NCBI GenBank assembly: GCA_030668485.1
Contig: DAOUTW010000041.1
Coordinates: 1-40,526 of the forward strand
Length of the DNA stretch: 40,526 nt
Reading direction: 5' to 3'
Source: Candidatus Zixiibacteriota bacterium
Lineage (GTDB): Bacteria; Zixibacteria; MSB-5A5; GN15; JAAZOE01
Both the position numbers and the translations under genes were made by a program. Below the pieces are notes generated by a model. That model was not told the origin of the DNA. It made no database searches and worked only from the letters and a program-made list of their open reading frames with translations. This document shows, piece by piece, positions 4,217 to 39,231 of this stretch. Positions within the stretch are counted from its first letter, which is position 1, and every line of letters starts with the position of its first letter.

Positions 4217-4244
4217 TTGACAGGCACTAAAAACTTTGTAACTT
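4217..4244 (+). promoter_or_regulatory. Candidate promoter of the LVIVD-repeat gene
   Basis: TTGACA at 4217-4222, a 16-bp spacer, then TAACTT at 4239-4244. The second box also fits the Bacteroidetes-style TAnnTT pattern, 19 nt after the TTG. The leader to the ATG at 4328 would be about 77 nt. Confidence 0.5.
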
Positions 4245-4327
4245 ATATATGGCAATATAAATATATCAAACAGAGTTTTTTCGCTCTTGCAATGCGGCAA
4301 ATGCTGCTTTTACCTTGGGAGGGTATT

Positions 4328-6412
4328 ATGCAATGCAATATCTCTAATGGAATATTTCTTTATATAGTATTTTCAATACTACTTTGCTCGATGATCTCTG
4401 CGGAGGAGATTAATATTACTCATGTCGGCAGTGCGCTTTGGGGGGATGTCAACGATTTTGACATTCGGGGCGATTATGCCTTCTTGGCGATGGGACATGG
4501 TTTGATGGTTCTTGATATAAGCGATCCGGAGTATCCGACCGAAGTATCGCGATCGTTCTTTGGAGATAGAGGGCCCAGATCGATTGACATTGAAGGTGGT
4601 TATGCCTATGTGAGTCGAGGCATAGAACCGGCGTATATTGTTGATATATCAGATGTCTATGCCCCTCAAATAATCGGCAGTTACCAGGCGGGATGTCCGG
4701 TTGATGAAATAATCCCTCATGGTGATTACGCCTTCCTTGTCCATGGATGCGGTACGGTAATTCTTGATATCACCGACCGAGCCAATCCGGATTCAATTGG
4801 GGGCGTTTTTCTCGTCGGTCCCATCGGTGTGACCATTTCCGGAAATTTAGCCTTTTTGTATTCTTTTGACGGAGTAATGATTCTCGATATGACCGATCCG
4901 TCGTCGCCGGTGGAGTTGTCTGTTTTCGAGACCGATGAATATCCGCGCTTGACCACCGTCGATGGCGATTATGCTTATCTGACCTGCGGGTATGATGGTT
5001 TGATAATCCTCGATGTCTCAGATCCGGCCAACCCTGTCCAGGTAGGGCAGTATGGCTCCAGCGCAGGCGGATTTGCCATTGATGGAAATATCGCGTATCT
5101 TGACATGGGTGGCGCGCTTGGACTTGATATCCTCGATATCAGCAATCCCGCCAATCCCCAGTTTCTGGCCCATTCCGATATAACTTCCTGGAACATGCAT
5201 CTTAGTAACGATAACCTGATTTTAGGTCACGGAGATTCCGATATAGATATTCTTGATATCTCAATTCCCGCCCAGCCGACTATTGCAGGTCAGTACGATC
5301 TCCCTGAATACTGGGCTTATGTTCATAACGAACATATTCGTACCGATGGTCGTTATGCTTATGTGCCATACGGCAGAGAGGGAATGGTAATCGTCGATGT
5401 GTTCGACCCCGCCCTACCCTCTGTGATGGCAGATGATATTACCCATCGCTCAGGTGATGTAATCGTCAAAGATCAGTATGCCTATGTCACCGATATAGGC
5501 GGCGATTACTGGGAAAATGGGTTGAAAATTTTCGATATCCGGGATATTGATAGCCCCTCGATGGTCGGATTTATTCATGATGGTGCAGCCCATGCCGTTA
5601 ATTTATTCGATCACTATGCGCTGTTGTTCGGCAGCTTCCCCAACATGCGGATCATTGATGTCGCTGATCCCGCTAATCCGGCGGTGGTCAGCAGTCTCGA
5701 TTCGGTCGCTCACGTCAATGCCTCGGTCATAGTGGATGATTATGCCTATCTGGCGGGGTCGTATATATTGCAACAGAGTACTGAACACTTTGAGATAATT
5801 GTCATGGATTTGTCAGACGCGCTTGATCCGATTGTCGTAAAGCGAGTCAATCTTGAGAAAGAACCTGATGACATCGCCGTTCGAGGCGATTATTTATATG
5901 TTGCCACCAATAATATGATTCAGGTTTATAGCCTGAGTGATAATCCCGCCGATCCGGTTTTCGTGACTGAATTGGATACCGATGGAAGTGACGCCATTGA
6001 TATTTATAACGATTTTCTCTTTGCCGCCACCGGTTCCAACGGGCTTAAGGTGCTTGACATTTCCGACCCGATCAGCCCGGTCATTGTCGGTTCCGCAGAC
6101 TTTCCCGGGGCCTACGGTGTGGCCGTGTACTACGAAACAGTCATTGTTTCCAGCAGTTGCGGTATCGAACTGTTTCACTGCGACCTGCCGACCTGTTGCC
6201 AATGTCCCGGCGACGCCAACTATGACGGGAAAACAGATGTTGGCGACGCCGTCACTATCATTGATTATGTCTTTAGGCAAGGGTCGCTTCCGATGTGCCC
6301 GCCCTCGGCCGATGCCAATAATGATTGCTCGGTCAATGTGGCCGATGCCGTAACTTTGATCAACTACATATTCAAAGACGGCTCAGTCCTGCTCTGCGGT
6401 GAGTGTGAATAA
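4328..6412 (+). CDS. Secreted LVIVD-repeat beta-propeller-like protein with C-terminal dockerin-like domain
   Basis: The product is about 694 residues. An N-terminal signal peptide (hydrophobic IFLYIVFSILLCSMISA) is followed by roughly a dozen repeats of about 45 residues. Each carries a GDYAYL-like strand and an xxxLDISDPxxP strand, the hallmark of LVIVD repeats that fold into beta-propellers on the cell surface. The last 70 residues form a dockerin-like pair of calcium loops: GDANYDGKTDVGDAVTIIDY and then ADANNDCSVNVADAVTLINY. Cysteines flank the loops (CCQCPGD and LLCGECE). The ATG at 4328 has GGGAGGG 4 nt upstream and gives the signal peptide; the frame upstream starts at the -35 box and is not used. 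It is probably exported and anchored or assembled through the dockerin-like region. The ligand is unknown. Confidence 0.88.
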   Translation: MQCNISNGIFLYIVFSILLCSMISAEEINITHVGSALWGDVNDFDIRGDYAFLAMGHGLMVLDISDPEYPTEVSRSFFGDRGPRSIDIEGGYAYVSRGIEPAYIVDISDVYAPQIIGSYQAGCPVDEIIPHGDYAFLVHGCGTVILDITDRANPDSIGGVFLVGPIGVTISGNLAFLYSFDGVMILDMTDPSSPVELSVFETDEYPRLTTVDGDYAYLTCGYDGLIILDVSDPANPVQVGQYGSSAGGFAIDGNIAYLDMGGALGLDILDISNPANPQFLAHSDITSWNMHLSNDNLILGHGDSDIDILDISIPAQPTIAGQYDLPEYWAYVHNEHIRTDGRYAYVPYGREGMVIVDVFDPALPSVMADDITHRSGDVIVKDQYAYVTDIGGDYWENGLKIFDIRDIDSPSMVGFIHDGAAHAVNLFDHYALLFGSFPNMRIIDVADPANPAVVSSLDSVAHVNASVIVDDYAYLAGSYILQQSTEHFEIIVMDLSDALDPIVVKRVNLEKEPDDIAVRGDYLYVATNNMIQVYSLSDNPADPVFVTELDTDGSDAIDIYNDFLFAATGSNGLKVLDISDPISPVIVGSADFPGAYGVAVYYETVIVSSSCGIELFHCDLPTCCQCPGDANYDGKTDVGDAVTIIDYVFRQGSLPMCPPSADANNDCSVNVADAVTLINYIFKDGSVLLCGECE

Positions 6413-13892: not shown

Positions 13893-15525
13893 GGTAGCAG
13901 TAACGGTCCTTATTATTGCAACAGGCACGACATCTTGGGGGGCGGACAATCAAAACCAATCTTTCCGGATACCCGATCCGGAGGAAATCTATGAGGCTTA
14001 TGAAAACGGCTTCATAGATTATCAGGATTATCTTGAGCTGCTCGAGATATCAAGGGGGAAATCCGTCTCATCCGGCGACTCGATTTTCCTGATGCAATTC
14101 CCCGATCTTTTGGCGGGGATTTCGCCCAATCCGCTTCTCAATCCTGCCGAAGATACGGTATCGACTGAGCCTGTGGAAAAGAGTGTCCCAATCGGATGGA
14201 CGCAGGCGTTTTTAGTTCGTCAATACCATCAATTCGAAGAGGATGATCGGCACCGCCAATTTTATCGGATTAAGGGAGGGTATCATCGGTATTCTTACTA
14301 TGGCGAAGTCGAGAGGGGATATACCGGATATCAGAAATGGGGGCGCAGGTCGTTGGAGTATACATTTTATTCTAATGATAAAAAGACAGGTAGCTGTCTG
14401 ATTTTGGGAAACTACAAAGACAAGTTTGGGATGGGACTAATCTATGGATATCATGGACGGTTGTTGTCGAAGGCAAGCGACCGCGATGGTGGGGAGCAAT
14501 TTTTATATCCGGCGTATGGAGGGGGCAACGGGGTTCTTCTGATAGTCAAGCGATCATCGGGGGATTTGAAATTGCTTTATGATGCCGACCGCAATGAATT
14601 GTTTGCCAAAAATGTGTTCGGGGTTACGATTCCATTAAGAGTATACTCAACTCGCTTTGCCCTGTCTGCGGTGCACGGGTATCTGCGGAATCGGGAAACT
14701 GATATTTCCGAGTCGTCCTCCCTGGTCTCGATCTTCGGTTATTCAGACAAAAAAACCATCCAGGCGACTTGGGAGGTGGCTGTGGCGGAGACGGACGGCA
14801 GAATTCCGATTGCGGCTGCGATGCAGGTCAAGTGGCGACGGCGGAAAGTGAGTCTGAATATGATCGGATGGAGTTATGGCAGCCGTTATCCATCGTATTT
14901 TTCCGGCGGGCCGTCATCGCGGCGGTCGCAGACTCATCGTCTGGATGATCTTGATCTCTCGTACAGTGATCGTTATGCCGGCGAGACCGGGATTGTCGTC
15001 AAGACATCATATCCGATAGCTGATCGGATGACTCTCCATTCGGCTGCCGGTTGTGCGCGGCGGGGTTTTGATGATGACCGAATTGAGGCGCGGATCGGGT
15101 TGAAGAACCGGCTGGGGAAGCATTATGCGGCGAAAATCGATTGCTATTGGCGCAGTGATCGTCTATATTCGGATATTCGCAAACAACGCAGAATACAATT
15201 GGAGATCAGTCGAGCCGGGGGGATGGCAAAGAATCGACTGGTCCTGGGATATCGTAACGAAAAACATAATAATCGGGATGACTTTCTGGCTCTGGCCGAA
15301 ATTAAAATATTACATCGAACAGGATCGCTGGCGGTATTGTGCAAATTCGATCGCCTGCGCCTGAATGACATAAATGATCGGTATATGTATCTGACCGGAT
15401 GGTATGAGGCGAAAATGAACGGGAATCTCAGCACATATGTTAAGTACACCTATAGGTATCGCAAAGGCGATCCGGGAAACAGTTACGGTACAATACGTGT
15501 CGACTTGAACTGGATCATTCAATGA
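13882..15525 (+). CDS. Putative outer-membrane beta-barrel protein
   Basis: About 547 residues from the GTG at 13882. This start gives a signal peptide (MKFRVAVTVLIIATGTTSWGA) and overlaps the activator's stop by 11 nt. A short helical segment follows (PDPEEIYEAYENGFIDYQDY), then a linker. The remaining ~400 residues alternate polar and aromatic residues in beta-strand style (QFYRIKGGYHRYSYYGEV, CLILGNYKDKFGMGLIYGYH, TYVKYTYRYRKGD), ending in a terminal strand VDLNWIIQ. This fits a large outer-membrane barrel; no exact family is recognised. Arg and Tyr are abundant. The frame stays open upstream to 13846, inside the activator gene. The next gene overlaps by 4 nt, so it belongs to the same operon. 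Confidence 0.65.
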   Translation: MKFRVAVTVLIIATGTTSWGADNQNQSFRIPDPEEIYEAYENGFIDYQDYLELLEISRGKSVSSGDSIFLMQFPDLLAGISPNPLLNPAEDTVSTEPVEKSVPIGWTQAFLVRQYHQFEEDDRHRQFYRIKGGYHRYSYYGEVERGYTGYQKWGRRSLEYTFYSNDKKTGSCLILGNYKDKFGMGLIYGYHGRLLSKASDRDGGEQFLYPAYGGGNGVLLIVKRSSGDLKLLYDADRNELFAKNVFGVTIPLRVYSTRFALSAVHGYLRNRETDISESSSLVSIFGYSDKKTIQATWEVAVAETDGRIPIAAAMQVKWRRRKVSLNMIGWSYGSRYPSYFSGGPSSRRSQTHRLDDLDLSYSDRYAGETGIVVKTSYPIADRMTLHSAAGCARRGFDDDRIEARIGLKNRLGKHYAAKIDCYWRSDRLYSDIRKQRRIQLEISRAGGMAKNRLVLGYRNEKHNNRDDFLALAEIKILHRTGSLAVLCKFDRLRLNDINDRYMYLTGWYEAKMNGNLSTYVKYTYRYRKGDPGNSYGTIRVDLNWIIQ

Positions 15526-16370
15526 ATTACAAAGGCATCATATTATCTTTGATACTGTTCGGGATGATCGGAGCGGCCGGAGCGCAGATACCTGATGATG
15601 CACCGATTTTGTCAGAGTTTATCTGCAATCCGATGGGCGAACTGGAGACCGAATGGATCGAGCTTTATAATCCGACCGAGATCTCATTGAATCTTACTCA
15701 TTATCAGATCGGCGATGCCTTAGGGCTGCGCAACATTTCGGATACCGGGATTATTCTGGCACCGGGAGAGTACATTGTACTGGCTGAAGACCCCATAAAA
15801 TTCGTTGATTTCTATACTGATTTCTCGGGAGTGGTTATATCACCCATAGGGTGGCAAACGCTAAACAATTATGGTCCGGAAACTGTCCGTCTGGCTGACA
15901 ATACTGGCGAGACAATCGATAGTTGCTACTATGATGACGGCTTTGCCGACAATCGCAGTTGGGAAAGGTATGTCAATGCCACAGAGGAGTCATTTTGGGG
16001 CGGGTCGTTCGCGGCGACAGGATCGACTCCCGGAGAGCAGAATGCCTTCTATTATCCCCGGGCTGAAGCAATCGATCTTGCCGTGACGCCTGATCCGTTC
16101 TCTCCCGACGGCAACGGTTTTGAGGATGTGACGGTGATCAGTTTTGGAATGCCGGAGGCGGATGATTTCGAGCTGGCGATCTATGATATCGCCGGTCGCA
16201 AGGTGAGGACATTCTATCAATCGGACGCCACGATCCCCGGTGAGGTAGTGTGGGATGGACGAGGTGACGGTGGGGAGACATTACCGATCGGGATTTATAT
16301 AATCTATGCCCGAATCGAGGGCGGTCGTTCGATTGAGGCGAAAAGAACTGTGGTCATAGCGCGGAATTAA
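15522..16370 (+). CDS. Secreted lamin-tail-domain protein with FlgD-like C-terminal domain
   Basis: The product is 282 residues. A signal peptide (IILSLILFGMIGAAGAQ) is followed by a lamin-tail-like domain (about residues 25-140), recognised from ILSEFICNP, EWIELYNPT, LNLTHYQIGD, ILAPGEYIVLAED and the DSCYYDDGF segment. The C-terminal 95 residues form an FlgD/Ig-like tail: PDPFSPDGNGFEDVTVISFG, LAIYDIAGRKVRTF, WDGRGDGGETLPIGIYIIYA. Such tails are common on exported FCB-group proteins. The ATG overlaps the previous stop (ATGA). A small CAGGC/GCCTG hairpin with a T run (16370-16393) separates it from the next gene. It probably decorates the cell surface or binds DNA or polysaccharide outside the cell; this is inference. 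Confidence 0.82.
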   Translation: MNYKGIILSLILFGMIGAAGAQIPDDAPILSEFICNPMGELETEWIELYNPTEISLNLTHYQIGDALGLRNISDTGIILAPGEYIVLAEDPIKFVDFYTDFSGVVISPIGWQTLNNYGPETVRLADNTGETIDSCYYDDGFADNRSWERYVNATEESFWGGSFAATGSTPGEQNAFYYPRAEAIDLAVTPDPFSPDGNGFEDVTVISFGMPEADDFELAIYDIAGRKVRTFYQSDATIPGEVVWDGRGDGGETLPIGIYIIYARIEGGRSIEAKRTVVIARN

Positions 16371-26588: not shown

Positions 26589-26594
26589 AAATGA

Positions 26595-26630
26595 CGCACC
26601 GGCCACCGAGGGCCGGATATATAAAGTGCG
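26595..26630 (+). promoter_or_regulatory. Second leader hairpin before the giant gene's ribosome site
   Basis: CGCAC (26595-26599) can pair with GTGCG (26626-26630). Within it CCGGCC (26599-26604) pairs with GGCCGG (26611-26616). Eight A residues follow, then the ribosome site GGAGGA and the ATG. It could modulate translation or act as an alternative fold to the first element. Confidence 0.4.
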
Positions 26631-26653
26631 AAAAAAAACCTATTGGAGGACTG

Positions 26654-29600
26654 ATGCTTAGGTTTGGATATAAATCCCTGCTGGTGGCATTATTTATTTT
26701 TGCAGGAACGGTACCTTTGGCTGCTTATTATTATTCTCCCGATAATCAGCCACCTGGAACCCCTCCCAATTACAACCAGATTGATCCCGAATATTTTTAT
26801 GGTGTACCGTCATTGGCCGAGCTTGGACCGGCTGAAATGGACGGGTACTTCATGTACTTCGACAGCGTCGAAACGCGCTGGTCGATAATGCGGGCGATAC
26901 CGTTTGGGACTTATGCTTATGAGCAATTCCACGGATCAATGCTGGTACAGTTGGATGGCGAACCGGAACCGGGTGTCAATGTCTGGCCGCAAGGTTTTGA
27001 TTTGACCGACGACCTCCATAGGAATGACCGCTGGGGCTGGGTAAAATGGCCCGATTCGATCGCGCCCAATCTTTATGAAGTCTGGTGGGATATAACCATC
27101 GAGTGCCCGGAGCCGGTTGTTAATCTGACCCGAACCATCGGGTTCTGGAAAAATCACACTGGAGTGGGACCTCAGGATGATCTGGTGTCCCAATTTTTGC
27201 CGATCTCGCTGGGAACGGCCGATGGCGCCAAGTCTCTTCTGGTTTCAGACGTACAGATCGCCTTTGATGTTTTGTCGATGTCGCTTATCGTAGATCAGCT
27301 CGACGGAATCAGTAAACTTCGGGCGCAGTTGCTGGCGGCCAAACTGGATATTGCCAGTGGAACCGACGGCACGGTAGTGGCCGATGTTATCGAATTGGCC
27401 GATCTTTTCCTGGCCGATCACGAACCGGCCGACTGGTGGAGTTTGGATGATGCAACCCGGCAGATGGTGCTGGATTGGAAAAATATCCTCGACAGCTATA
27501 ACAACGGTTATATCGGTCCCGGTCATGATGACGGAAATATCATTGTTGACTGCGGCGAAGATGGATGCCCTCCCTGTGTCGTCGGAATGTCGTTTTCCGG
27601 CTGCGCTTTCGATTTTAACCTCTGGAGTTCAAGCTATAATCAAGTTTTCAGCGCCGACAAGATTTATCTCGGCGAGCAAAGAATGCCCCTTTCGACTATC
27701 CCCGGATATTTGGACACTTTCGAGGGAATCGATGATCCTTATGGTCATCCTTTCGATTGTCCCGATAGTCCGGTTTTCAATAAACTGACCGGCACCGGTA
27801 TGCTGGAATGCAATGAACCTAACCTTTCGGTCTTTGCACCGGTAATGTTCCCCGGGGCGGCCTATAATGCCGATGGTATGATTGTCGCTGGTGATGAGTA
27901 TGGCGATAGCTACAGCGGCAGCCGCGTTTATGAGGGGAACGGAATCCAGTTTTCGCTCAATGATTGCGGGGAGAACAATCCTCCCGAATTCGATCCTCCC
28001 GTCGGATACCTCAAGCCGGTCAGGCTCTGCCTTGATGGTACTATTTATGATACCATCGTGGCTAACGATTTTGACCCGGGCGCCTATGTTACCCTGACGC
28101 AGATCTCAGGCCCCGGCGATTTCACATCTACACCGGGGGCTCCTCCGGTGTATGGATATTTTTCGTGGACACCGACCGCTTCCGGCGAATACGCGATTGT
28201 TTTCGAGGCGGTCGATAATTTCGGCGCCTCGGTGATCGATTCGATCATCTACGATATTTCTTTCAATACCGCTCCCGATATTACGGCTCAGGATACGACG
28301 ATTGTCGCCTGCTGGGGATTGCAGCAGATTTGTTATACGGTCCCGGTATTCGATCCGGATGACGATTCGCTGACCTTTACTTTAATATCAGGCATGGGCG
28401 AGATCAACCCGGTAACAGGGGAGATATGTTTCACGCCGGAGGTTGAAGGCGAATATTCGTTTGAAGTTGAGGTTGCCGACAGTTGTGCCTTCGATACGGC
28501 CATGTTCACGGTTACCGTGACGCTCAATAACGATCCCTGGATAAATCCCTACGATACGATTATTGCTCTCTGTGAAACCGATACGATCTGCTTTGACGTA
28601 ACTGCCTTTGATCCCGATCCGGGCGACAGCCTGGAAATCAATTTTGTCTCCGGTCCCGGAGAATTCAATCAGACCGGCAATGGCGTCGGTACTCATTGTT
28701 TCCTGCCGGACGGAATCGATTCGGCGCGGTATGTTTTTGTATACAATGTGACCGACAATTGTTGGAGAGAGAGTTTCAAGACTTCGACGCCTCCGGTCCC
28801 GACCGATTCCATTGTTATTATTGTCATCACCGAAGAACCGCCGGTGATTACCTGTCCCGACGGGCCGATCATGGAATTTTTGTGCGGTCCCGATTCGCTT
28901 TGTGTCGAGATTCCGATTGAACCGGCTGATGCTATTATTACTGTGCTCGAACAGGGTGCGGTCTACGAGAATGGAAAACTTTGTTTTTATGCCGACGAAC
29001 CGGGCATCTATGAATTCACTCTGGTAGCCTCCAATGAATGCGGCGACGATACATGCGTAGTGACCTTTGATGTCAATATGGATGAGGCTCCGCAATTAAC
29101 CTGCCCGCCGTCTCAGTCGATTCATCTCTGCGAAGCGGGTGATATTTCCCTGCCGTTGGGCTGGATGCCGGAGTCGGCTGTAATCACTATTGTGCCTGAG
29201 GCCGAATATGCCGACGGATTGATGACCTTCTTTGCCGGCGAGCCGGGCGATTACGAATTTACAGTTTCTGCCGAAACCGGGTGCGGTGTCGATTCCTGCA
29301 ATTTCACGATTACGGTTACCTTTGATTCGCCTCCGGTGGTTACGATTTCCGACAGTACGCTTCTGCTTTGTGAACTGGAGGAGATCTGTATCCCGTTCAG
29401 TTATTCCGATCCCGACGGTAATGTCGACCGGGTTATTATTCAGCCGGTCAGTTTCCAAAAAGTTAATGACAGCATTGTTTGCTTTACGCCGTTTGGTTCC
29501 GGAGACTATGAAATCATTGTGACGGTAACCGATTCCTGTCAAAATTACACTTCCGATACGGCGATAATCACGGTCGAGTTGAATCAGGAGCCGACGGTTA

Positions 29601-32600
29601 CGGTCGGCGATGATAGTTTCTTCCTTTGCGAGCCGACCGAGGTCTGTTTACCGGTAACCATGTTCGATCCGGATAGCAAGATCGAGTCGGTGATAATTTC
29701 GGAACCGGGTTATCTTGATGCCGAAAATGGGCAGGTTTGCCTGCCGGTTTCAGAATCGGGTAATTATCAGATTATCGTAACCGTTTATGACGATTGCGGA
29801 GCGATGGCGGTCGATACCGGAGTGGCTGAAGTGACTTTCGGCGCGGCCCCGATAATTTACTGCCCGCCCAGCGGCGCGATGCATCTCTGCGGTCCGGATT
29901 CAATTTCGGTACCTCTATCGGTGGTACCCGTATCGACTATGCTGAATATCAGCCCCGAGGCGATGTATGCCGATGGAATGCTGACCTTCTTCGCCGATGA
30001 ACCGGGTGAATACTGTTTTGAAGTTTCCGCCGGTAGTGATTGCGGCGCCGATACCTGTAATTTTTGTATCACTGTTACTATGGATTCGCCTCCGACGGTG
30101 ACCATCGCCGATACGGTAGTCTACTTGTGCGAGTTCGAGGAAATATGCCTGCCGTACAGCTACCACGATCCCGATGGCAATGTTGTCAGTGTCACCGTAG
30201 CGGGCATGAAAGATTATCTCGATCCGTCTCAGACCGAAGGCGAAGTCTGTTTTGTTCCTTGGAGGAAAGGCATCAACGAACTTGAAATAATAGTGACCGA
30301 TGCTTGCGGGCATAGCGCCTATGATACTTCGACGGTTATTGTCGTTTACAATATGGACCCACAGGCCAGCCTTGAAAATGCCACCTTCAACCTGTGTGAG
30401 CCGGACAATATCTGTATGCCGCTGACGATGTCTGACCGGGACGGCGTAATTGATTCGGTAGTCGTGATGGCTCCGGCCTATTATGACGCCGATAATCAGC
30501 GGGTTTGTATGCCGGTGGATGAGACCAATCTGTATCAGATTACCGCCATCGTTTATGACGATTGCGGCGCTTCCGCTATCGCCACGGCGATTGCCAGGGT
30601 GATTGTAAACTACACTCCCGAGGCCACCGTTCCCAATGACACCACCGTATTCCTGTGCGAGTTATCCGAGATTTGTCTTGACGGTTTTGAGTTCCTAGAT
30701 AGAAACCAGAACCTGGCCAATATAGAATTTACCCCCGATATCGGTACTTACACCGACGGCCGGTATTGCTTTATGCCGGAAGGGGAAGGCACCTTTATGT
30801 TTGTCGTCAGGGCTACTGATTCCTGCGGAGCTCTCGACGAAGATACGATTAATGTGACGGTCGAACTGGGCGAAGGCGTAGTCATCGATTGCCCGGTCGA
30901 AATACCGCCAATGACTTTGTGCGGCCCCGATTCGGTTTGCTTAGATATGCCGATTAGTCCGGTCACTGCCGAAGTGCGGATTGTTGAAGAGGGCGCGGCT
31001 TACGCCGATGGCAGACTCTGCTTCTACGCCGATGAATCAGGCACATACACCTATACAGTGATCGCCACCGGAGATTGCGGCGAGGATACCTGCCAGGTTT
31101 CGGTCGATATTACGATCGATGAAGCCCCGCAGATTGTTTGCCCGCCATCTGATACGATTGACCTTTGCGGACCGGAAATGATCAGCGTCCCGCTCGGATA
31201 TTCTCCGGAATCGGCCGAGTTGCTGATTGATCCCCAGGTTGAATATTCCGATGGTATGCTGCATTTCATGGCTGAAGAGCCGGGTGATTATTGTTTCGAC
31301 GTCGTGGCAAGTAATTCCTGCGGTGCCGACACCTGCCATTTCTGCATCACGGTTACGTTCAACTCCCCGCCGGAACTGGCTGTTACCGACAGCACTCTGT
31401 TCCTTTGCGCTATGCAGGAAATTTGTGTTCCGGTAAGTTACTCCGATCCTGATGGTGATACACTTGCTGTGATTTTTTCGCCGGAAGGGCTGTTTGAACT
31501 CCGGGACGGGGAAGTTTGCCTTAATGCCGATGCTCCCGGTACCTATGAATATTCCATACAGGTGACTGATCCCTGCGGCCTGACTATTGCCGATACCGGT
31601 ACGATCACCGTGACTCTGAATGAAGGGCCGACGGTGGTTGTGCCCGACAGTTCGATTTTCCTTTGCACCCCATCCACGATCTGTCTCCCGGTGACTATCA
31701 CCGATCCGGATGAAGATATAGATTCAATTATAGTTTCCGAGCCGGCCTATTATGATTCCGAAAAGGGTGTTGTCTGCCTTGAGGTGGCCGAAGCCGGCAC
31801 GTATGAAATAACTGTGACGGTTTATGACGATTGCGGCGAGATGGCGACCGACATGGGAACCATCACCGCCGAATTCGGAACCTTCACGCAAATCACCTGT
31901 CCTGAATCACAGACTATCCACCTTTGCGAACCCGAAATGATTTCGCTGCCGCTCGGTGTGGTTCCGTCGAATGCGACAGTCACTATCGATCCCGCGATTG
32001 AATATGCCGACGGCATGATTAGCTTTATGCCCGATACGGCCGGAATGTACTGCTTTACGGCCATTGCCGAGAGCGATTGCGGAGCCGATTCCTGCGGCTT
32101 CTGCATCACTGTTGAATATGATTCGCCCCCGACGATTACCGCCACCGATAGTACTGTTAATCTTTGTGAATCAGAGGAAATCTGTATTCCGTTCACTGTT
32201 TCCGATCCCGATGATAATATCGACACGGTCACGGTGAGCCCCGATATATTCTCGATTGTCGATGGTAAGGTGTGCTTTACTCCGGTCGAATCCGGGACCT
32301 TTAATTACTACCTTTCAGTTATGGATGAATGTGGCAATCCGGACACGGCCATGGGCGTGATCGAAGTCAATTTCAATCAGGGACCTTCGGTCGAAGTTGG
32401 CGATGATTCCGTCTTTATCTGCGAACCTACCATTGTTTGTCTGCCCATTATGGCACTCGATAATGACGGTGTTATCGATTCTGTGATTGTCTCCGAACCC
32501 TGGTACTACAACCCTGATACTTCAGGTGTCTGCCGCGAAGTCTCCGAATCGGGCGTTTACGACGTCACGGTCACAGTCTATGATGATTGCGGAGCTTCAG

Positions 32601-35600
32601 CCTCTATGCTGGGCACGGCGGTCGTGACATTAAACAGCGCCCCGATAGTTACTCTCCCTGCTGATACTTCGCTGTTCCTCTGCGAACCGCAGCAGCTCTG
32701 CTTCCCGTTCGAGGTCACCGATATCGACAACAATCTTGCTGATATCACGGTTCTGCCGGAAGGATTTGAAATCACCGATGGCGATATTTGCTTCTTTGCT
32801 GATGAATTAGGCGTTCATGAGGTGATCCTCACCGCAACCGATTCCTGCGGCGTCAGCGATGCGGATACGTTCATGGTAACGGTTGCAATAAACGAGCCTC
32901 CGGCAATCCTGGTAGGGGATACGACGCTGTTCAGTTGCGAGCCTCTGGAGGTTTGCGTTCAGGTGAATGTCGCTGATACCGATGGCGATATCGATTCGGT
33001 TATCGTATCGATGCCGGCATATTATAACGAAGTAAACGGTACTGTTTGTCTGCCGGTCGAGGAATCGGGATCATTCGATATCACTGTAACGGTTTATGAC
33101 GACTGCGGCGCTCCGAACTCCGATATAGCCACTTTTGATGTGACAATCAATAGCACGCCGGTGGTAGATGCTCCGGCCGATTCCAATGTCTTTGTTTGTA
33201 CTCCGGGTGAGATTTGCCTGGATGGTTTTGAAATCTTCGATGTTGATCAAAACATCGTAAACATAGAATTTATGCCTGATCTCGGCACTTATGTCGAAGG
33301 CACCTATTGCTTCATGCCGGATCAGGAAGGGCAGTATTGTTTCGTCGTCCGGGCTACCGATGAATGCGGCCTGGTTGCCGAAGATACGGTATGCGTCAAC
33401 TACCAGCTTGGAACCGATGCTGTAATCGCCTGTCCCGAGGGTATTCAGCCGGTCAGTTTGTGTAGCCCCGATTCGGTCTGTTTCGAAATTGCAATCGAAC
33501 CGGCCACGGCGATAGTGAGTGTACTGGAACAAGACGCCGTTTATGCCGATGGCAAACTCTGTTTCTTCGCTGAAGGCGAAGGACTATACACCTATACGAT
33601 CGTCGCTCAGGGTGATTGCGGCGCCGACACCTGCCAGGTGACTTTCGATGTCAGCCTGATGGCCGGACCGCAACTGACCTGCCCGCAAATCGATTCAATG
33701 CATCTCTGTGATCCCGGCATGGTCTCGGTGCCTCTCGGTGTCATGCCCGGAACAGCCATCGTGACGACTACACCGGAAGCGGAATATGCCGACGGTATGC
33801 TGACCTTTATGGCCGAAGGTCCGGGCGAGTATTGCTTCGAAGTCGTGGCCACTAACGAATGTGGCAGCGATACCTGCAACTTCTGCCTTACCATCACAAT
33901 GGATTCGCCGCCGGTGGTGACCATCTCCGACACGACGCTGTTCCTCTGCAACCTTGAGGAAATCTGCCTGCCGTACCAGTATTCCGATCCGGACGATAAT
34001 GTCGTCAGCGTAACGGTCGGTCCCAACAAGTTCGATGTAACCGATGGATTGGTCTGCTATACTCCGATCGGAGCCGGGACTGAAGAGATATATATCACGG
34101 TAACCGACTCCTGCGGCCACAGCGCCGTCGATACTGCCACAATCGTGATTACGCTCAATCAGGATCCTCAAGTGACAGTCGGCGATACCGCTGTCTTCCT
34201 CTGCGATCCGGCCGTGCTCTGCGTTCCTGTCAGCGCCTTTGACTCGGACGGGACCATCGATTCCATAGTCGTTGTCGAACCGGCTTATTATGACACTGAA
34301 AACGGAACCGTCTGCATGAGTGTCAGCGAATCGGGCAACCATGAAGCGATTGTCATGGCTTATGACGATTGCGGCGTTGTGGCTGTCGATACCGGGATCA
34401 TTACAGTCAGGTATAATTTCCCGCCGATGGTCGATGCTCCGGCGAATAAGACAGTTCTTTTCTGCGAGCCGACTGAAATCTGCCTCGATGGTTTCGTGGT
34501 CATTGATATCGATAGGAATCTGGAGTCGATCCAGTTTACTCCCGATATCGGTACCTTTAACGATGGAACCTATTGCTTCACCCCTCAGGAAGCGGGCGAG
34601 TACTGCATTGTTATGAGGGCAACCGATTCCTGCGGGGCGATCGGTGTCGATACCGTTTGTGTCAGCGTCATCCAGGGCAGCTATGTCTCCCTGGCTTGCC
34701 CCGAAGGAATAATAGAGAGAAGTATCTGCGAGCCGGATACGGTTTGTATAGATGTTCCTGTCACCCCGGCCGATGCCGACGTAATAGTGCTTGAAGATGG
34801 CGGTTATTACAGCGGCGGTCAATTGTGCTTCTTTGCCGATCATTCCGGTACATACATCTATACTGTGATTGCCACCGGCGACTGCAATGCCGACACCTGC
34901 GTTGTCACCGTCGATCTCTCACTCGGTGAACTGCCGGTGATAACTTGCCCCGAGCCGCGTAACGAACATCTCTGCGGACCCGATTCGATTTCGGTACCGC
35001 TAACCATTTCGCCCGCCGATGCTGAGCTGCAAATCAGCCCTGACGCTTCTTATGCCAATGGGATGCTGACCTTCTACGCCGATACCGAAGGAGAGTACTG
35101 CTTCGAGGTTATCGCTTACGGTCCGTGCGGCGATGATACCTGCAACTTCTGTGTCACGGTGACCTTCGACGATCCGCCTCTGGTTTCGGTTACCGACAGC
35201 ACCATGTACCTGTGCAATCTTGAAGAGATATGTATCCCGGTCGATATCTCCGACCCGGATAACAATATAAAGACAATTGAAATCTATCCGCCTGAATACA
35301 GCCTGGTCGACAATGCCGTCTGCTTCACTCCGACGGCGACCGGTACCTATGAAATCATTGTGACTGTCACCGATTCCTGCGATCATCAGACGGTCGATAC
35401 CGGTACGGTAGACCTGTCCCTGAATCCGGAACCGTCGGTGATTGTACACGACAGCACCATCTTCCTCTGCGAGACCGGCGATGTTTGCCTGGCGGTCGAA
35501 ATGTCCGATCCGGACGGGACCATCGATTCTATCGAGGTCTCCGAACCGGCCTACTACGACGCTGCTAACCAGCGGGTCTGCCTTGCCGTTGACGTTGCGG

Positions 35601-38281
35601 GATCTTATGAAATTACTGTCACGGTTTATGATGATTGCGGCGCTTCGGCCACCGATGCCGGTACCGCTACGGTGATGATTAATACCGGCCCGACAGTCGA
35701 GTTCGGTCCGTTTGACAGCCCATTGTATCTTTGTGATCTGACCGAGGTCTGTCTCCCGATTATCGTCGGCGACGCCGAGGGCAATATTGTCAGCCTGACC
35801 GGCAGCACGACCTGCGGCGGCGGAGTAACCTTCAATGAGGCTCAGGATGTTATCTGCTGGGCGCCGAATACCTTCGGACCGTGTACTATCACCGTGTTTA
35901 TCACCGATGATTGCGGCGTCTCGGATACCGCCACAGCCGAGGTAGAACTGATTGAATCTCCCGGACCGAGGCCGCCGTGTCCCGACGACACGACCATTTT
36001 TGTCTGTACCCCTGGTCAGCAGACCTGTGTCGATCTGGGCGACATTCAGCCCGGCAGCAATATCACCATCCGGCCTTCGATGTACAGTTTTGTTCCCGAC
36101 CTGGGTCAGTTGTGTTATTTCCCCAGCGGCGACCAAAGCGATCTTATAACCGTTATCGATTCCACCGAATGCGGTATTGATTCCTGCCAGTTCGTTCTGA
36201 CGACGGTCATGAATCGTCCCCCGGTGATTACCGGGGAGGCTCCGGGTGAGATAGAATTCTGTCACGAGGTCAATATCTGCATCGATTATGCCGCCAGCGA
36301 TCCCGATAACAATATTGAGACGATCAGGGTTCTCGGGGACTGCACCGGTGTTATTCTCGATGCCGCCAATAATCGAGTCTGCCTGGAAATCACTACCGAG
36401 GTTGATTGTACGCTCGATATTATCGCCATCGACGTCTGTGGCCTGGCCGATACTCTGACGATTCCGATCGTTGCCACGCCGAATCAGCCGCCGGCGATCA
36501 GCCTGCCTGATATTGAAACGGTGGTTCGCTGCAACGACGACGATACCCCGATCTTCATCGCCGATATCTGTGTCGGCGACGGTGATTATGACGAGGTGAC
36601 GCTGGTTATGGATTCCGGGCTGGGCGAGTTCAGCTTCAATCCGGTATTCAATTGCGGCGATTTGACTTTCACGCCGCCGACCAACGATACCGCACAATAT
36701 TGCTTCCGCTTCCGGGCCGAGGATGCCTGCGATACGGTTTATGAAACCTGGTGCCTGAATGTTCTACCGGCGTTGGTTTGTTCTACTTGTATCGAGGTGT
36801 CGATTGAAGATCGCGGCTGTACCAACTCCGGCCAGGTGACATCGGTCGATATTATCGCCAATGTGACCAATGATATTGCCGCCTATGATATGTTGATCGC
36901 TTATGATGCTTCGGCACTCAGTTTCCTCAGGGCCAATATCGGCACCGCCATCGAAGGATGGGAATACTTCACCTATCGCTTCGGTGATCAGGGCAATTGC
37001 GAAGCGCCCTGCCCGTCCGGTTTGATCCGGATGGTCGCTATCGCCGACGTCAACAACGGTCCGTTCCATCCTCCGGCCGAGCAACTCAATCCGGACGGCA
37101 CCATCGCCTCGATAACCTTCCGTGTATCCAATGACCTGAATTTGGGCGGCCAGAATATTCCGATCCAATTCTTCTGGATGGACTGCGGCGATAACGGCTT
37201 CTCCGATCCTACGGGGCAGTACCTGTATGTCGATAACATCATCTACAGTCCGGAAGGGAATATCATCTGGGATGAGTCCAACGATGCCGCCTATCCCGAG
37301 TCGGCGCGTTTTCCGCATGTCGGCGTTCCCGATGAATGTCTTATCGGCGATAAATTCGAACCGGTCCGCTGCATCAGCCTGCATAATGGCTACTTATGTA
37401 TCACCCATCCTGACTCGATCGATGCCCGCGGCGATTTGAACTTGAACGGTGTCGCGTATGAAATCGCGGATGCGGTTGTTTACACCAACTACTTTATCAG
37501 CGGTCTGAGCGCCTTTACTATCTCGGTGGCCGGACAAATTGCCGCTTCGGATGTCAACGCCGACGGCATGACACTTTCAATTGCCGACCTGGTATACCTG
37601 ATCCGTGTAATTATCGGCGATGCCCCGCCATATCCGAAGAAACTTATCAATAGCGATCCCGTTATCGGTATATGCAGCCAAACCGGGTCTAAGGCAACGG
37701 TCTCGCTCGATTCCGAGCATGATGTCGGGGCGGCGCTGCTGATCTTCAATTGCGAGGGTGGTACGCCGAATGAACCGGTACTGGCTGAAGCGGCAGAAGG
37801 TATGGAGATCAAATCGGGCTGGCTCAATGATGAATTCCGAGTCCTGGTATACAGTTTCGAAGCCGGAGCGATGATCAAAGCCGGAACCTCCGATCTGGTT
37901 AATATCTCAATGTCTGAGGGCGGTACCATTGAATTGGTTGAACTCGATGTCGCCGATTACTATGGCCGGGTCCTGGGATCTGAAATCGGCAACGCCATGT
38001 TGCCTCTGGCGCTGGAGTTGTCTCAGAACCAGCCCAACCCGTTCAATCCGACGACGACCTTCAGCATGGCTCTGCCGACTGCGTCCGATTACAATGTGAC
38101 GATATTCAATATCACCGGTCAAGTGGTCAAACGCTGGATCGGCTACGCTGAGGCCGGCTATATCACTTTCGAGTGGAACGGCCGCGATGAGAACGGTCAG
38201 ACGGTTGCCTCCGGTATCTACTTCTACCGCGCCCAGGCAGTTGGCACCGAAGCGATAAAGAAAATGATTTTGCTGAAATAG
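26654..38281 (+). CDS. Giant secreted multi-modular surface protein (Ig/cadherin-like repeats, cohesin-like, dockerin-like, sorting tail)
   Basis: About 3,875 residues. A signal peptide (LLVALFIFAGTVPLAA) starts at the ATG at 26654, which has GGAGGA just upstream. Residues about 155-300 contain RTIGFWKNHTG, a motif common in exported repeat proteins. From about residue 442 to 3,376 there are about 34 modules of about 85 residues, mostly with four or more cysteines and signatures such as LCELEEIC, SDPDGN and VTVYDDCGA. At least five types alternate in an ordered way. A cohesin-like domain follows (about 3,377-3,560, DMLIAYDASALSF), then a dockerin-like pair (about 3,592-3,660, DVNADGMTLSIADLVYL), a beta domain and a type IX/FlgD-like tail (NQPNPFNPTT, GIYFYRAQ). 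Role: probably cell-surface adhesion or a scaffold; the partner is unknown. It is monocistronic, with a terminator after. Confidence 0.92.
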   Translation: MLRFGYKSLLVALFIFAGTVPLAAYYYSPDNQPPGTPPNYNQIDPEYFYGVPSLAELGPAEMDGYFMYFDSVETRWSIMRAIPFGTYAYEQFHGSMLVQLDGEPEPGVNVWPQGFDLTDDLHRNDRWGWVKWPDSIAPNLYEVWWDITIECPEPVVNLTRTIGFWKNHTGVGPQDDLVSQFLPISLGTADGAKSLLVSDVQIAFDVLSMSLIVDQLDGISKLRAQLLAAKLDIASGTDGTVVADVIELADLFLADHEPADWWSLDDATRQMVLDWKNILDSYNNGYIGPGHDDGNIIVDCGEDGCPPCVVGMSFSGCAFDFNLWSSSYNQVFSADKIYLGEQRMPLSTIPGYLDTFEGIDDPYGHPFDCPDSPVFNKLTGTGMLECNEPNLSVFAPVMFPGAAYNADGMIVAGDEYGDSYSGSRVYEGNGIQFSLNDCGENNPPEFDPPVGYLKPVRLCLDGTIYDTIVANDFDPGAYVTLTQISGPGDFTSTPGAPPVYGYFSWTPTASGEYAIVFEAVDNFGASVIDSIIYDISFNTAPDITAQDTTIVACWGLQQICYTVPVFDPDDDSLTFTLISGMGEINPVTGEICFTPEVEGEYSFEVEVADSCAFDTAMFTVTVTLNNDPWINPYDTIIALCETDTICFDVTAFDPDPGDSLEINFVSGPGEFNQTGNGVGTHCFLPDGIDSARYVFVYNVTDNCWRESFKTSTPPVPTDSIVIIVITEEPPVITCPDGPIMEFLCGPDSLCVEIPIEPADAIITVLEQGAVYENGKLCFYADEPGIYEFTLVASNECGDDTCVVTFDVNMDEAPQLTCPPSQSIHLCEAGDISLPLGWMPESAVITIVPEAEYADGLMTFFAGEPGDYEFTVSAETGCGVDSCNFTITVTFDSPPVVTISDSTLLLCELEEICIPFSYSDPDGNVDRVIIQPVSFQKVNDSIVCFTPFGSGDYEIIVTVTDSCQNYTSDTAIITVELNQEPTVTVGDDSFFLCEPTEVCLPVTMFDPDSKIESVIISEPGYLDAENGQVCLPVSESGNYQIIVTVYDDCGAMAVDTGVAEVTFGAAPIIYCPPSGAMHLCGPDSISVPLSVVPVSTMLNISPEAMYADGMLTFFADEPGEYCFEVSAGSDCGADTCNFCITVTMDSPPTVTIADTVVYLCEFEEICLPYSYHDPDGNVVSVTVAGMKDYLDPSQTEGEVCFVPWRKGINELEIIVTDACGHSAYDTSTVIVVYNMDPQASLENATFNLCEPDNICMPLTMSDRDGVIDSVVVMAPAYYDADNQRVCMPVDETNLYQITAIVYDDCGASAIATAIARVIVNYTPEATVPNDTTVFLCELSEICLDGFEFLDRNQNLANIEFTPDIGTYTDGRYCFMPEGEGTFMFVVRATDSCGALDEDTINVTVELGEGVVIDCPVEIPPMTLCGPDSVCLDMPISPVTAEVRIVEEGAAYADGRLCFYADESGTYTYTVIATGDCGEDTCQVSVDITIDEAPQIVCPPSDTIDLCGPEMISVPLGYSPESAELLIDPQVEYSDGMLHFMAEEPGDYCFDVVASNSCGADTCHFCITVTFNSPPELAVTDSTLFLCAMQEICVPVSYSDPDGDTLAVIFSPEGLFELRDGEVCLNADAPGTYEYSIQVTDPCGLTIADTGTITVTLNEGPTVVVPDSSIFLCTPSTICLPVTITDPDEDIDSIIVSEPAYYDSEKGVVCLEVAEAGTYEITVTVYDDCGEMATDMGTITAEFGTFTQITCPESQTIHLCEPEMISLPLGVVPSNATVTIDPAIEYADGMISFMPDTAGMYCFTAIAESDCGADSCGFCITVEYDSPPTITATDSTVNLCESEEICIPFTVSDPDDNIDTVTVSPDIFSIVDGKVCFTPVESGTFNYYLSVMDECGNPDTAMGVIEVNFNQGPSVEVGDDSVFICEPTIVCLPIMALDNDGVIDSVIVSEPWYYNPDTSGVCREVSESGVYDVTVTVYDDCGASASMLGTAVVTLNSAPIVTLPADTSLFLCEPQQLCFPFEVTDIDNNLADITVLPEGFEITDGDICFFADELGVHEVILTATDSCGVSDADTFMVTVAINEPPAILVGDTTLFSCEPLEVCVQVNVADTDGDIDSVIVSMPAYYNEVNGTVCLPVEESGSFDITVTVYDDCGAPNSDIATFDVTINSTPVVDAPADSNVFVCTPGEICLDGFEIFDVDQNIVNIEFMPDLGTYVEGTYCFMPDQEGQYCFVVRATDECGLVAEDTVCVNYQLGTDAVIACPEGIQPVSLCSPDSVCFEIAIEPATAIVSVLEQDAVYADGKLCFFAEGEGLYTYTIVAQGDCGADTCQVTFDVSLMAGPQLTCPQIDSMHLCDPGMVSVPLGVMPGTAIVTTTPEAEYADGMLTFMAEGPGEYCFEVVATNECGSDTCNFCLTITMDSPPVVTISDTTLFLCNLEEICLPYQYSDPDDNVVSVTVGPNKFDVTDGLVCYTPIGAGTEEIYITVTDSCGHSAVDTATIVITLNQDPQVTVGDTAVFLCDPAVLCVPVSAFDSDGTIDSIVVVEPAYYDTENGTVCMSVSESGNHEAIVMAYDDCGVVAVDTGIITVRYNFPPMVDAPANKTVLFCEPTEICLDGFVVIDIDRNLESIQFTPDIGTFNDGTYCFTPQEAGEYCIVMRATDSCGAIGVDTVCVSVIQGSYVSLACPEGIIERSICEPDTVCIDVPVTPADADVIVLEDGGYYSGGQLCFFADHSGTYIYTVIATGDCNADTCVVTVDLSLGELPVITCPEPRNEHLCGPDSISVPLTISPADAELQISPDASYANGMLTFYADTEGEYCFEVIAYGPCGDDTCNFCVTVTFDDPPLVSVTDSTMYLCNLEEICIPVDISDPDNNIKTIEIYPPEYSLVDNAVCFTPTATGTYEIIVTVTDSCDHQTVDTGTVDLSLNPEPSVIVHDSTIFLCETGDVCLAVEMSDPDGTIDSIEVSEPAYYDAANQRVCLAVDVAGSYEITVTVYDDCGASATDAGTATVMINTGPTVEFGPFDSPLYLCDLTEVCLPIIVGDAEGNIVSLTGSTTCGGGVTFNEAQDVICWAPNTFGPCTITVFITDDCGVSDTATAEVELIESPGPRPPCPDDTTIFVCTPGQQTCVDLGDIQPGSNITIRPSMYSFVPDLGQLCYFPSGDQSDLITVIDSTECGIDSCQFVLTTVMNRPPVITGEAPGEIEFCHEVNICIDYAASDPDNNIETIRVLGDCTGVILDAANNRVCLEITTEVDCTLDIIAIDVCGLADTLTIPIVATPNQPPAISLPDIETVVRCNDDDTPIFIADICVGDGDYDEVTLVMDSGLGEFSFNPVFNCGDLTFTPPTNDTAQYCFRFRAEDACDTVYETWCLNVLPALVCSTCIEVSIEDRGCTNSGQVTSVDIIANVTNDIAAYDMLIAYDASALSFLRANIGTAIEGWEYFTYRFGDQGNCEAPCPSGLIRMVAIADVNNGPFHPPAEQLNPDGTIASITFRVSNDLNLGGQNIPIQFFWMDCGDNGFSDPTGQYLYVDNIIYSPEGNIIWDESNDAAYPESARFPHVGVPDECLIGDKFEPVRCISLHNGYLCITHPDSIDARGDLNLNGVAYEIADAVVYTNYFISGLSAFTISVAGQIAASDVNADGMTLSIADLVYLIRVIIGDAPPYPKKLINSDPVIGICSQTGSKATVSLDSEHDVGAALLIFNCEGGTPNEPVLAEAAEGMEIKSGWLNDEFRVLVYSFEAGAMIKAGTSDLVNISMSEGGTIELVELDVADYYGRVLGSEIGNAMLPLALELSQNQPNPFNPTTTFSMALPTASDYNVTIFNITGQVVKRWIGYAEAGYITFEWNGRDENGQTVASGIYFYRAQAVGTEAIKKMILLK
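28835..35683 (+). repeat. Higher-order protein super-repeat within the giant gene
   Basis: Five module types can be told apart by eye. D begins near LCGPDSVC and ends CGADTCxV. E has YADGMLTF and CGADTCNFC. A has LCxLEEIC and SDPDGN. B has SVIVSEPAYYD and VYDDCGA. C has EICLDGFE and PDIGTY. Read in order: D E A B E A B C; D E A B E A B A B C; D E A B C; D E A B. D modules start at 28835, 30872, 33413 and 34679. The units differ at the DNA level, so the duplications are old. Confidence 0.8.
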
Positions 38282-38353: not shown

Positions 38354-38833
38354 TTACTTGTGGTAGCTGCCGCCGGCATTTAGATTCAGGACACGATATA
38401 GTTGCTCCAGCAGTACCAGCCGGGTTATCTGATGCGACATTGTCATAGCGGAGAAGCTGAAGCAGAGGCCTTTCGGCTCTCTGATCGATTTGAGAGCCGG
38501 GGCGAGGCCATAGGGGCCACCAATGACAAATTCAATCAGGGAATGCCCGTCCACCTGCAGCTTTTCGATTTTCCTGGCAAAGATTTCGGTGGGACAGGTT
38601 TTGCCTTTGACATCGAGCAGAAACAGGTAACCGCCTTTGAGATTGGCCTCAATCGCTTCGGCCTCCGCGATCAGGGCTTTGCTGATATCGGTTCCCTTTG
38701 CATATTTCGCCTCAGGAACAACTGTAAATTCAAGGCGGGCGTACTTTTTTATCAGCTTGTCGTAATGTTCAATATGTTCGGAGACCCAGCGGTTTTTGTC
38801 GCGCCCGACAGTGATTATATGAATGGTCAGCAT
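38354..38833 (-). CDS. rlmH: 23S rRNA (pseudouridine1915-N3)-methyltransferase
   Basis: The product is 159 residues, the usual RlmH length. It methylates pseudouridine 1915 in helix 69 of 23S rRNA using S-adenosylmethionine. The SPOUT-fold signatures are visible: FLLDVKGKT, IGGPYGLAPA (the SAM-binding GGPxG, 105-109), and SFSAMTMSHQITRLVLLEQLYRVL near the C terminus, ending NAGGSYHK. The ATG at 38833 (minus strand) has CGAGGG about 5 nt upstream; the frame is open to 38857, but those residues precede the normal start MLTIHIITVGR. It overlaps the stop of the YjbQ gene by 1 nt (TAATG), so the two form one operon. Confidence 0.95.
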   Translation of the reverse strand: MLTIHIITVGRDKNRWVSEHIEHYDKLIKKYARLEFTVVPEAKYAKGTDISKALIAEAEAIEANLKGGYLFLLDVKGKTCPTEIFARKIEKLQVDGHSLIEFVIGGPYGLAPALKSIREPKGLCFSFSAMTMSHQITRLVLLEQLYRVLNLNAGGSYHK

Positions 38834-39231
38834 TATCCCTCGATTATTTTGAGCCATACCTTGCGGGAGCGAGGCCCGTCGAATTCACAGAAATAGATCC
38901 CCTGCCAGGTACCTAGGCATAGCCTTCCTTCTGCGATAAACACTGTGGCTGACGATCCCATCAGGCTGGCTTTGATATGGGCCGGTGAATTGCCCTCGGC
39001 GTGGCGGAATTTGCCCGATTGCGGGACCATCTCATCGAGATGCATGAGGATATCGCTTTTGACGCTGGGGTCGGCGTTTTCGTTGATAGTAATACCGGCG
39101 GTGGTGTGGGCGACATAGACGATGACGAAACCTTCATTGATTTTACAGTCAGAGACCGCCGTTTGCACCTCGGAAGTGATATCGACCAGTTGTGTTTGTC
39201 CCGAGGTCGGGACCTTGATGGAGCCGTTCAT
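38833..39231 (-). CDS. YjbQ/UPF0047-family protein
   Basis: The product is 132 residues, the family length. Visible motifs are VYVAHTTAGITINENAD (about 38-54, with the conserved His-Thr-Thr) and KFRHAEGNSPAHIKASL (74-90), followed by LGTWQGIYFCEFDGPR. The conserved His and Glu residues suggest a small metal-binding enzyme; some homologues are annotated as a secondary thiamine-phosphate synthase activity, and the true role is unsettled. It is the first gene of the minus-strand operon with rlmH. The upstream 1 kb (39232-40232) holds no other clear gene on either strand apart from the candidate small ORF. Confidence 0.9.
   Translation of the reverse strand: MNGSIKVPTSGQTQLVDITSEVQTAVSDCKINEGFVIVYVAHTTAGITINENADPSVKSDILMHLDEMVPQSGKFRHAEGNSPAHIKASLMGSSATVFIAEGRLCLGTWQGIYFCEFDGPRSRKVWLKIIEG

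Follow-up and report, generated by a model that had tools for sequence, protein, structure and literature searches.

Ordered super-repeats, in which domain types recur in a fixed sequence along a protein, are best known from muscle proteins. In the A-band of titin, the super-repeats read -AC-ABC in the D-zone and -AC-ABC-ABC in the C-zone (PMC10665226). Titin is a giant chain of beta-sandwich domains of the eukaryotic Ig and FnIII kinds and is found in muscle cells, where the filament that it partners is known; each of its domains is more similar to those at the equivalent position in other super-repeats than to the domains beside it, and it has grown by duplication of super-repeats, including that of sub-blocks.

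In bacteria, the closest kinds are fibrillar adhesins and Periscope Proteins. Fibrillar adhesins have a head and a surface anchor joined by a stalk of many domains in tandem (PMC8286594, whose text mentions neither type IX secretion nor Zixibacteria), while Periscope Proteins have stalks of tandem modules in which the number of highly similar DNA repeats changes the length (PMC8201768). Adhesins and hooks secreted by the type IX secretion system (T9SS) have also been reviewed (PMC11205867).

Here we describe a giant gene from an uncultured bacterium of the phylum Zixibacteria. Its product shares the working principle of titin, namely the recurrence of types in fixed order through block duplication, and is thus a variant of a known super-repeat principle with a syntax comparable to that of titin. 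It resembles fibrillar adhesins and Periscope Proteins in its tandem-module stalk, and a defining feature of each is either absent or not established here. Our search of one open-access library, which lacks most subscription papers, found no paper on this protein family.

Results

Gene and protein layout

At positions 26591-38281 of the window, which is the whole stretch of 40,526 nucleotides that we analyzed, one ORF runs without interruption. The start at 26654 in the original prediction is preferred over the first ATG at 26591, because a GGAGG motif occurs at 26645-26649 and a signal-peptide-like start follows. The protein begins with a head, which is followed by 34 Ig-like modules; towards the C-terminus come a cohesin-fold domain, a dockerin-like segment and a second beta-sandwich, and a T9SS sorting domain ends the chain. 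The features of the locus are as follows:

26654-38281, + strand: gene for the giant secreted surface protein, with 3,875 aa when counted from M22 of ORF 26591-38281, single open frame
26654-26725, + strand: predicted signal peptide, MLRFGYKSLLVALFIFAGTVPLAA, a hydrophobic stretch recognized by eye from the translation
26726-27949, + strand: N-terminal head, kept in family orthologues except for an insertion (phmmer against relatives)
27104-27553, + strand: "RTIGFWKNH" domain of ~150 aa inserted in the head, absent from the heads of four relatives compared
27950-28840, + strand: N-terminal cap modules N1-N3 (N1 99/96, N2 99/85, N3 100/94 across genera)
28841-30877, + strand: block 1, D E A B E A B C (module split and tree)
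30878-33418, + strand: block 2, D E A B E A B A' B C (module split and tree)
33419-34684, + strand: block 3, D E A B C (module split and tree; predicted structure with pLDDT 91)
34685-35689, + strand: block 4, D E A B (module split and tree)
35690-36775, + strand: C-terminal cap modules K1-K4 (K1 95/75, K2 100/99, K3 100/99, K4 100/100 across genera)
36779-37405, + strand: cohesin-fold domain (match to 5nrk_A with Z 15.9, rmsd 1.9, 140/143 residues, 19% identity)
37412-37630, + strand: dockerin-like segment with two D-x-N-x-[ND] loops and a helix after each
37661-37990, + strand: second beta-sandwich domain (predicted structure of the C-terminus)
37997-38281 including the stop codon, + strand: FlgD-Ig-like T9SS C-terminal sorting domain (FlgD_ig 43.2 bits, cut-off 27)
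38354-38857, - strand: rlmH (SPOUT methyltransferase; Pfam), a convergently oriented neighbour by which the locus can be recognized throughout the order

With the exception of the first Ig-like module, no known domain was found in the head using Pfam, and no known adhesive domain using Pfam and PDB sequence searches, so "adhesin" would be a tentative label. As far as these searches go, the lack of a recognized adhesive domain and single modules that fall under every Pfam cut-off set the protein apart from fibrillar adhesins. The GFWKNH domain also occurs elsewhere: 33 of 60 genomes of the order have matches, which form part of other ORFs, most of them 350-500 aa long.

An ordered array of module types between conserved caps

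The 34 Ig-like modules, each of ~85 residues, span residues 454-3395 in the order N1 N2 N3, DEABEABC, DEABEABA'BC, DEABC, DEAB and K1 K2 K3 K4. The original prediction had assigned its ~34 modules to types A-E, which holds for 27 of them, whereas the other seven are the conserved caps N1-N3 and K1-K4. Its blocks of 8, 10, 5 and 4 modules were recovered as described, and its spacings of 2,037, 2,541 and 1,266 bp between D modules are exact, with D starts at residues 751, 1430, 2277 and 2699. The module at residues 2017-2101 (m18) is a divergent A-like module, denoted A'; we rejected its interpretation as a C/A recombination scar, because the gain of 14.8 is below the 20.4 seen with a true module.

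We assigned labels to the window's modules by eye before building their tree, in which clustering into the five predicted types was supported for B (98/98), C (97/89), D (96/90) and E (90/91), but A was loose and formed no supported clade. Mean amino acid identity within the window is 51% between modules of the same type and 28% between types. Only eight kinds of adjacency occur in the array, and none of 100,000 shuffles produced as few. Because the types had been labelled by eye beforehand, type-free collinearity provides the independent test, and this was likewise far above shuffled order (r = 0.43, z = 10.4; 0/500 shuffles). The modules therefore follow an ordered rather than a random grammar and cluster by type, the reverse of the two outcomes that the original prediction had named as counting against it.

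Five single modules, one per type, were compared with Pfam, and the best score was 16.9 bits against a cut-off of 27 (Big_9 / PKD), although Big_9 sums to 68 bits over the whole protein. That no described family has this grammar, as was proposed, is thus correct in that no Pfam or NCBIfam model fits the modules individually, but the principle itself is known from the titin A-band. Tandem Repeats Finder detected a single 40-bp repeat alone in the gene.

Paired cysteines follow the module types

The array contains 16.6% Asp+Glu, 1.5% Lys+Arg and 5.6% Cys, a composition that differs from that of the cytosolic proteins encoded in the window. Across 906 modules, cysteine columns 40 and 217 are each occupied in ~90%, and other columns covary in pairs (59-159, phi 0.94; 23-227, phi 0.92; 19-203, phi 0.82; 75-104, phi 0.71), with phi values that are inflated by common ancestry since the modules are mutually related. 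In the window, D modules always have six cysteines and A and B modules have four, while E and C modules, where they lose any, drop two jointly; pairs vanish together in modules m04 and m10. That the module types follow paired cysteines predicts type-specific disulfides. In the numbering of the individual modules, these would be 15-71 and 21-52 in A, B and C, displaced by about one residue in modules with an indel; 15-67, 21-48 and 5-72 in D; and 15-66, 6-71 and 57-74 in E, with a further 62-80 pair in those C modules that carry its cysteines. We know of no type-specific disulfide code in titin. Pairing of three-disulfide modules was rejected as an order-wide rule (0 proteins with P < 0.05).

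Predicted structure and C-terminal domains

The AlphaFold model of a DEABC block (pLDDT 91) is all beta, in keeping with five beta-sandwiches, and its pTM of 0.46 leaves the angles between modules, and hence the straightness of the chain, uncertain. Foldseek matches of this model include tandem Ig and cadherin stalks, titin I-band 3b43, bacterial GhpA, RTX adhesin arrays and S-layer proteins. At 10-16% identity, these modelled fold matches would mean "stalk-like" and nothing further: the match to 3b43 (TMq 0.32, 11% identity) reflects a common bead-on-string fold only, and that to GhpA of Aureispira, which is also a giant T9SS-secreted protein with Ig-like arrays, is at the level of the fold (13-14% identity).

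The sequence of the cohesin-fold domain scores below the Pfam Cohesin cut-off (15.2 bits vs 24.1). In the adjoining dockerin-like segment, the loop residues are invariant or almost so among 22 homologues; pLDDT is below 50 over most of its length, and Pfam Dockerin has no match across it. Both loops are one residue longer than what we take to be the standard dockerin motif. The segment is degenerate, and a duplicated calcium loop with the standard spacing is lacking. The sorting domain scores 37.8 bits with TIGR04183 (cut-off 23), and its model superimposes on the PorU C-terminus 6za2_A (Z 11.6, rmsd 2.2, 91 residues).

Export machinery and genomic context

The genome encodes SprA (597.2 bits, cut-off 200) and PorU (646.6 bits, cut-off 420), and 79 T9SS signals can be found in it at E 0.001 or better. 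With a sorting domain over the cut-off, a signal peptide, and translocon and sortase genes in the genome, the protein has the features of T9SS type A cargo, to which it adds a cohesin fold and an ordered array of 34 modules. Judged from sequence, predicted export by the T9SS is well supported, which upholds the initial description of a surface protein.

The neighbours of the giant gene are housekeeping genes (holA and rlmH, and those for an ECF sigma factor, PCMT, and PspC- and LiaF-like proteins), so that a dedicated operon is not indicated. Elsewhere in the window are an LVIVD beta-propeller protein with a C-terminal dockerin (4217-6412), with an outer-membrane barrel protein and MreB nearby, and a lamin-tail-domain protein with a CHU_C-type T9SS signal (15522-16370). 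At least nine further ORFs of the genome (on contigs such as C54, C65, C93, C96 and C110) share most of the cassette from the cohesin to the sorting domain, and there are at least 150 Dockerin_1 matches, which together make up a large cohesin-dockerin repertoire. The genome also encodes a shorter paralogous giant of 2,415 residues (L032, G000:C51:44352-51599), in which adjoining modules are up to 86% identical and the cysteine pattern is unlike that of the giant in the window.

Relatives and age of the array

Relatives of the modules are present in 55 of 60 genomes of the order. The collection scan used an alignment of the C-terminus, an earlier alignment having had no stretch conserved enough; its named matches are mostly Candidatus Zixiibacteriota, and the plasmids searched gave no match. 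In 17 further genomes from several families, rlmH lies immediately downstream of the giant gene, giving at least 18 Zixibacteria genomes in total, and the orthologues at this locus have super-repeats with periods of their own. K1-K4 were found together in the window's family only, while N1-N3 are found more widely.

A tree built from 105 modules of six proteins in the family recovers E, C and each of the caps N1-N3 and K1-K4 as single groups, while D, A and B require two or three changes. Because modules of other genera group by type, the types and caps predate the genera of the family, between which identity is ~46%. The arrays between the caps differ among relatives:

G006: D A D E A B C D E A B C B
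G002: D D D D E A B C D E A B
G003 (start missing): E A B C D E A E A B
G001 (start missing): D D D E A B

In G002, one adjoining D pair is almost identical and represents one recent tandem duplication. Within the window, DNA identity between modules of the same type is 47-65%, unlike the highly similar DNA repeats of Periscope Proteins, and where residues are identical their third codon positions have reached saturation, so the window holds no recent block copy; recent block duplication in this genome is ruled out by the saturation of synonymous sites. The original prediction of block duplication with gain and loss of sub-blocks agrees with the different block numbers of family members, but the duplications are old, mostly before the genera, and the grammar is therefore no recent product of this genome. 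Individual steps may have been either insertions or losses.

In a survey that mixes proteins linked and unlinked to rlmH, several of them from paralogous groups, the strongest self-similarity lags of family proteins were 3, 4, 5, 10, 12, 13, 14 or 15 modules, and most of the proteins exceeded shuffled order. Type letters applied to other families denote the nearest match to the types of this family and imply no homology of types. Five family giants from Zixibacteria (L076, L102, L103, L109 and L125) are plain tandem arrays whose modules are almost identical, with a mean neighbour identity of 68-78%, unlike the ordered ones.

Discussion

We consider it probable that the giant protein is a T9SS-exported rod, or stalk, anchored at the cell surface, with a module order that is inherited. 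Its N-terminal head, possibly the binding part, would be held away from the cell by the 34 strongly acidic Ig-like modules with their predicted disulfides, while at the C-terminus the cohesin-fold domain and the T9SS signal would place the protein on the outer surface. A rod with an outward head on the surface is what we infer from the architecture. Ig-like domains generally suggest a length of ~34 x 4 nm. The array could lengthen or shorten when blocks of several modules (DEABC, EAB, AB) recombine unequally while the end caps stay fixed, and, since recombination of blocks copies their order together with the modules, the order would be inherited. The fixed caps, the shared types and the differing block numbers are most simply explained if the order is inherited as blocks are duplicated and lost.

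An unlikely but possible alternative is that the protein is a structural scaffold or surface-layer component, in which the cohesin fold of the giant and of its paralogues binds dockerin proteins of the same cell and the rod serves as a spacer or lattice strut, and not as an adhesin. The additional ORFs with most of the cohesin-to-sorting-domain cassette, the abundance of Dockerin_1 matches, and the S-layer proteins among the Foldseek matches of the block model would fit such a role, but the dockerin-like segment of the giant is poorly predicted, and cohesin-dockerin binding here is putative, being proposed from sequence. Dockerin domains are, moreover, common outside cellulosomes.

It is also conceivable, though we regard it as quite unlikely, that the order itself is functional, with a fixed partner of equal period docking onto the rod in register, in the way that thick-filament proteins do on titin. 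An in-register partner would place the order of types under selection, beyond inheritance. The types have indeed kept their identity and their order even though synonymous sites are saturated and the genera have diverged, and ordered super-repeats recur across the taxonomic order. However, the period varies by lineage (3, 4, 5, 10, 12, 13, 14 modules), which argues against one universal partner; the relatives G001 and G002 tolerate runs of D D D and D D D D; and inheritance by block duplication suffices to explain the order. A more far-reaching version, which we consider very unlikely, is a bacterial counterpart of titin, in which partners arranged periodically, perhaps surface proteins with dockerins that join cohesin-bearing stalks, would read the disulfide-coded order of types. 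If this were true, the array would act at the cell surface as a ruler or as a strand of a lattice, and lineages would alter its period.

A role as a gliding or predation adhesin, comparable to SprB of Flavobacterium or the T9SS-secreted grappling hook of Aureispira, is highly improbable: the protein is a giant T9SS cargo and its block model matches three GhpA fragments, but Ig-like arrays match many unrelated stalks just as well. Finally, the suggestion that the order keeps similar modules apart and prevents misfolding of neighbours, in line with the rule of <50% neighbour identity quoted in PMC8201768, is scarcely credible. The window's adjoining pairs are all at most 42% identical where shuffling expects 3.25 pairs above 45%, but 36 family proteins have 141 adjoining pairs above 45% identity against 126 expected, some of them >90% identical, and neighbour avoidance as a family-wide rule is unsupported.

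A bacterial phylum that is represented in these data by metagenome-assembled genomes only has retained one giant gene beside rlmH. The predicted disulfide pairs could be checked using one recombinant block. The gene combines a constant frame, consisting of the caps, the cohesin fold and the sorting signal, with an array whose period varies between lineages, so that how module order arises, is maintained and disappears can be traced over many orthologues.
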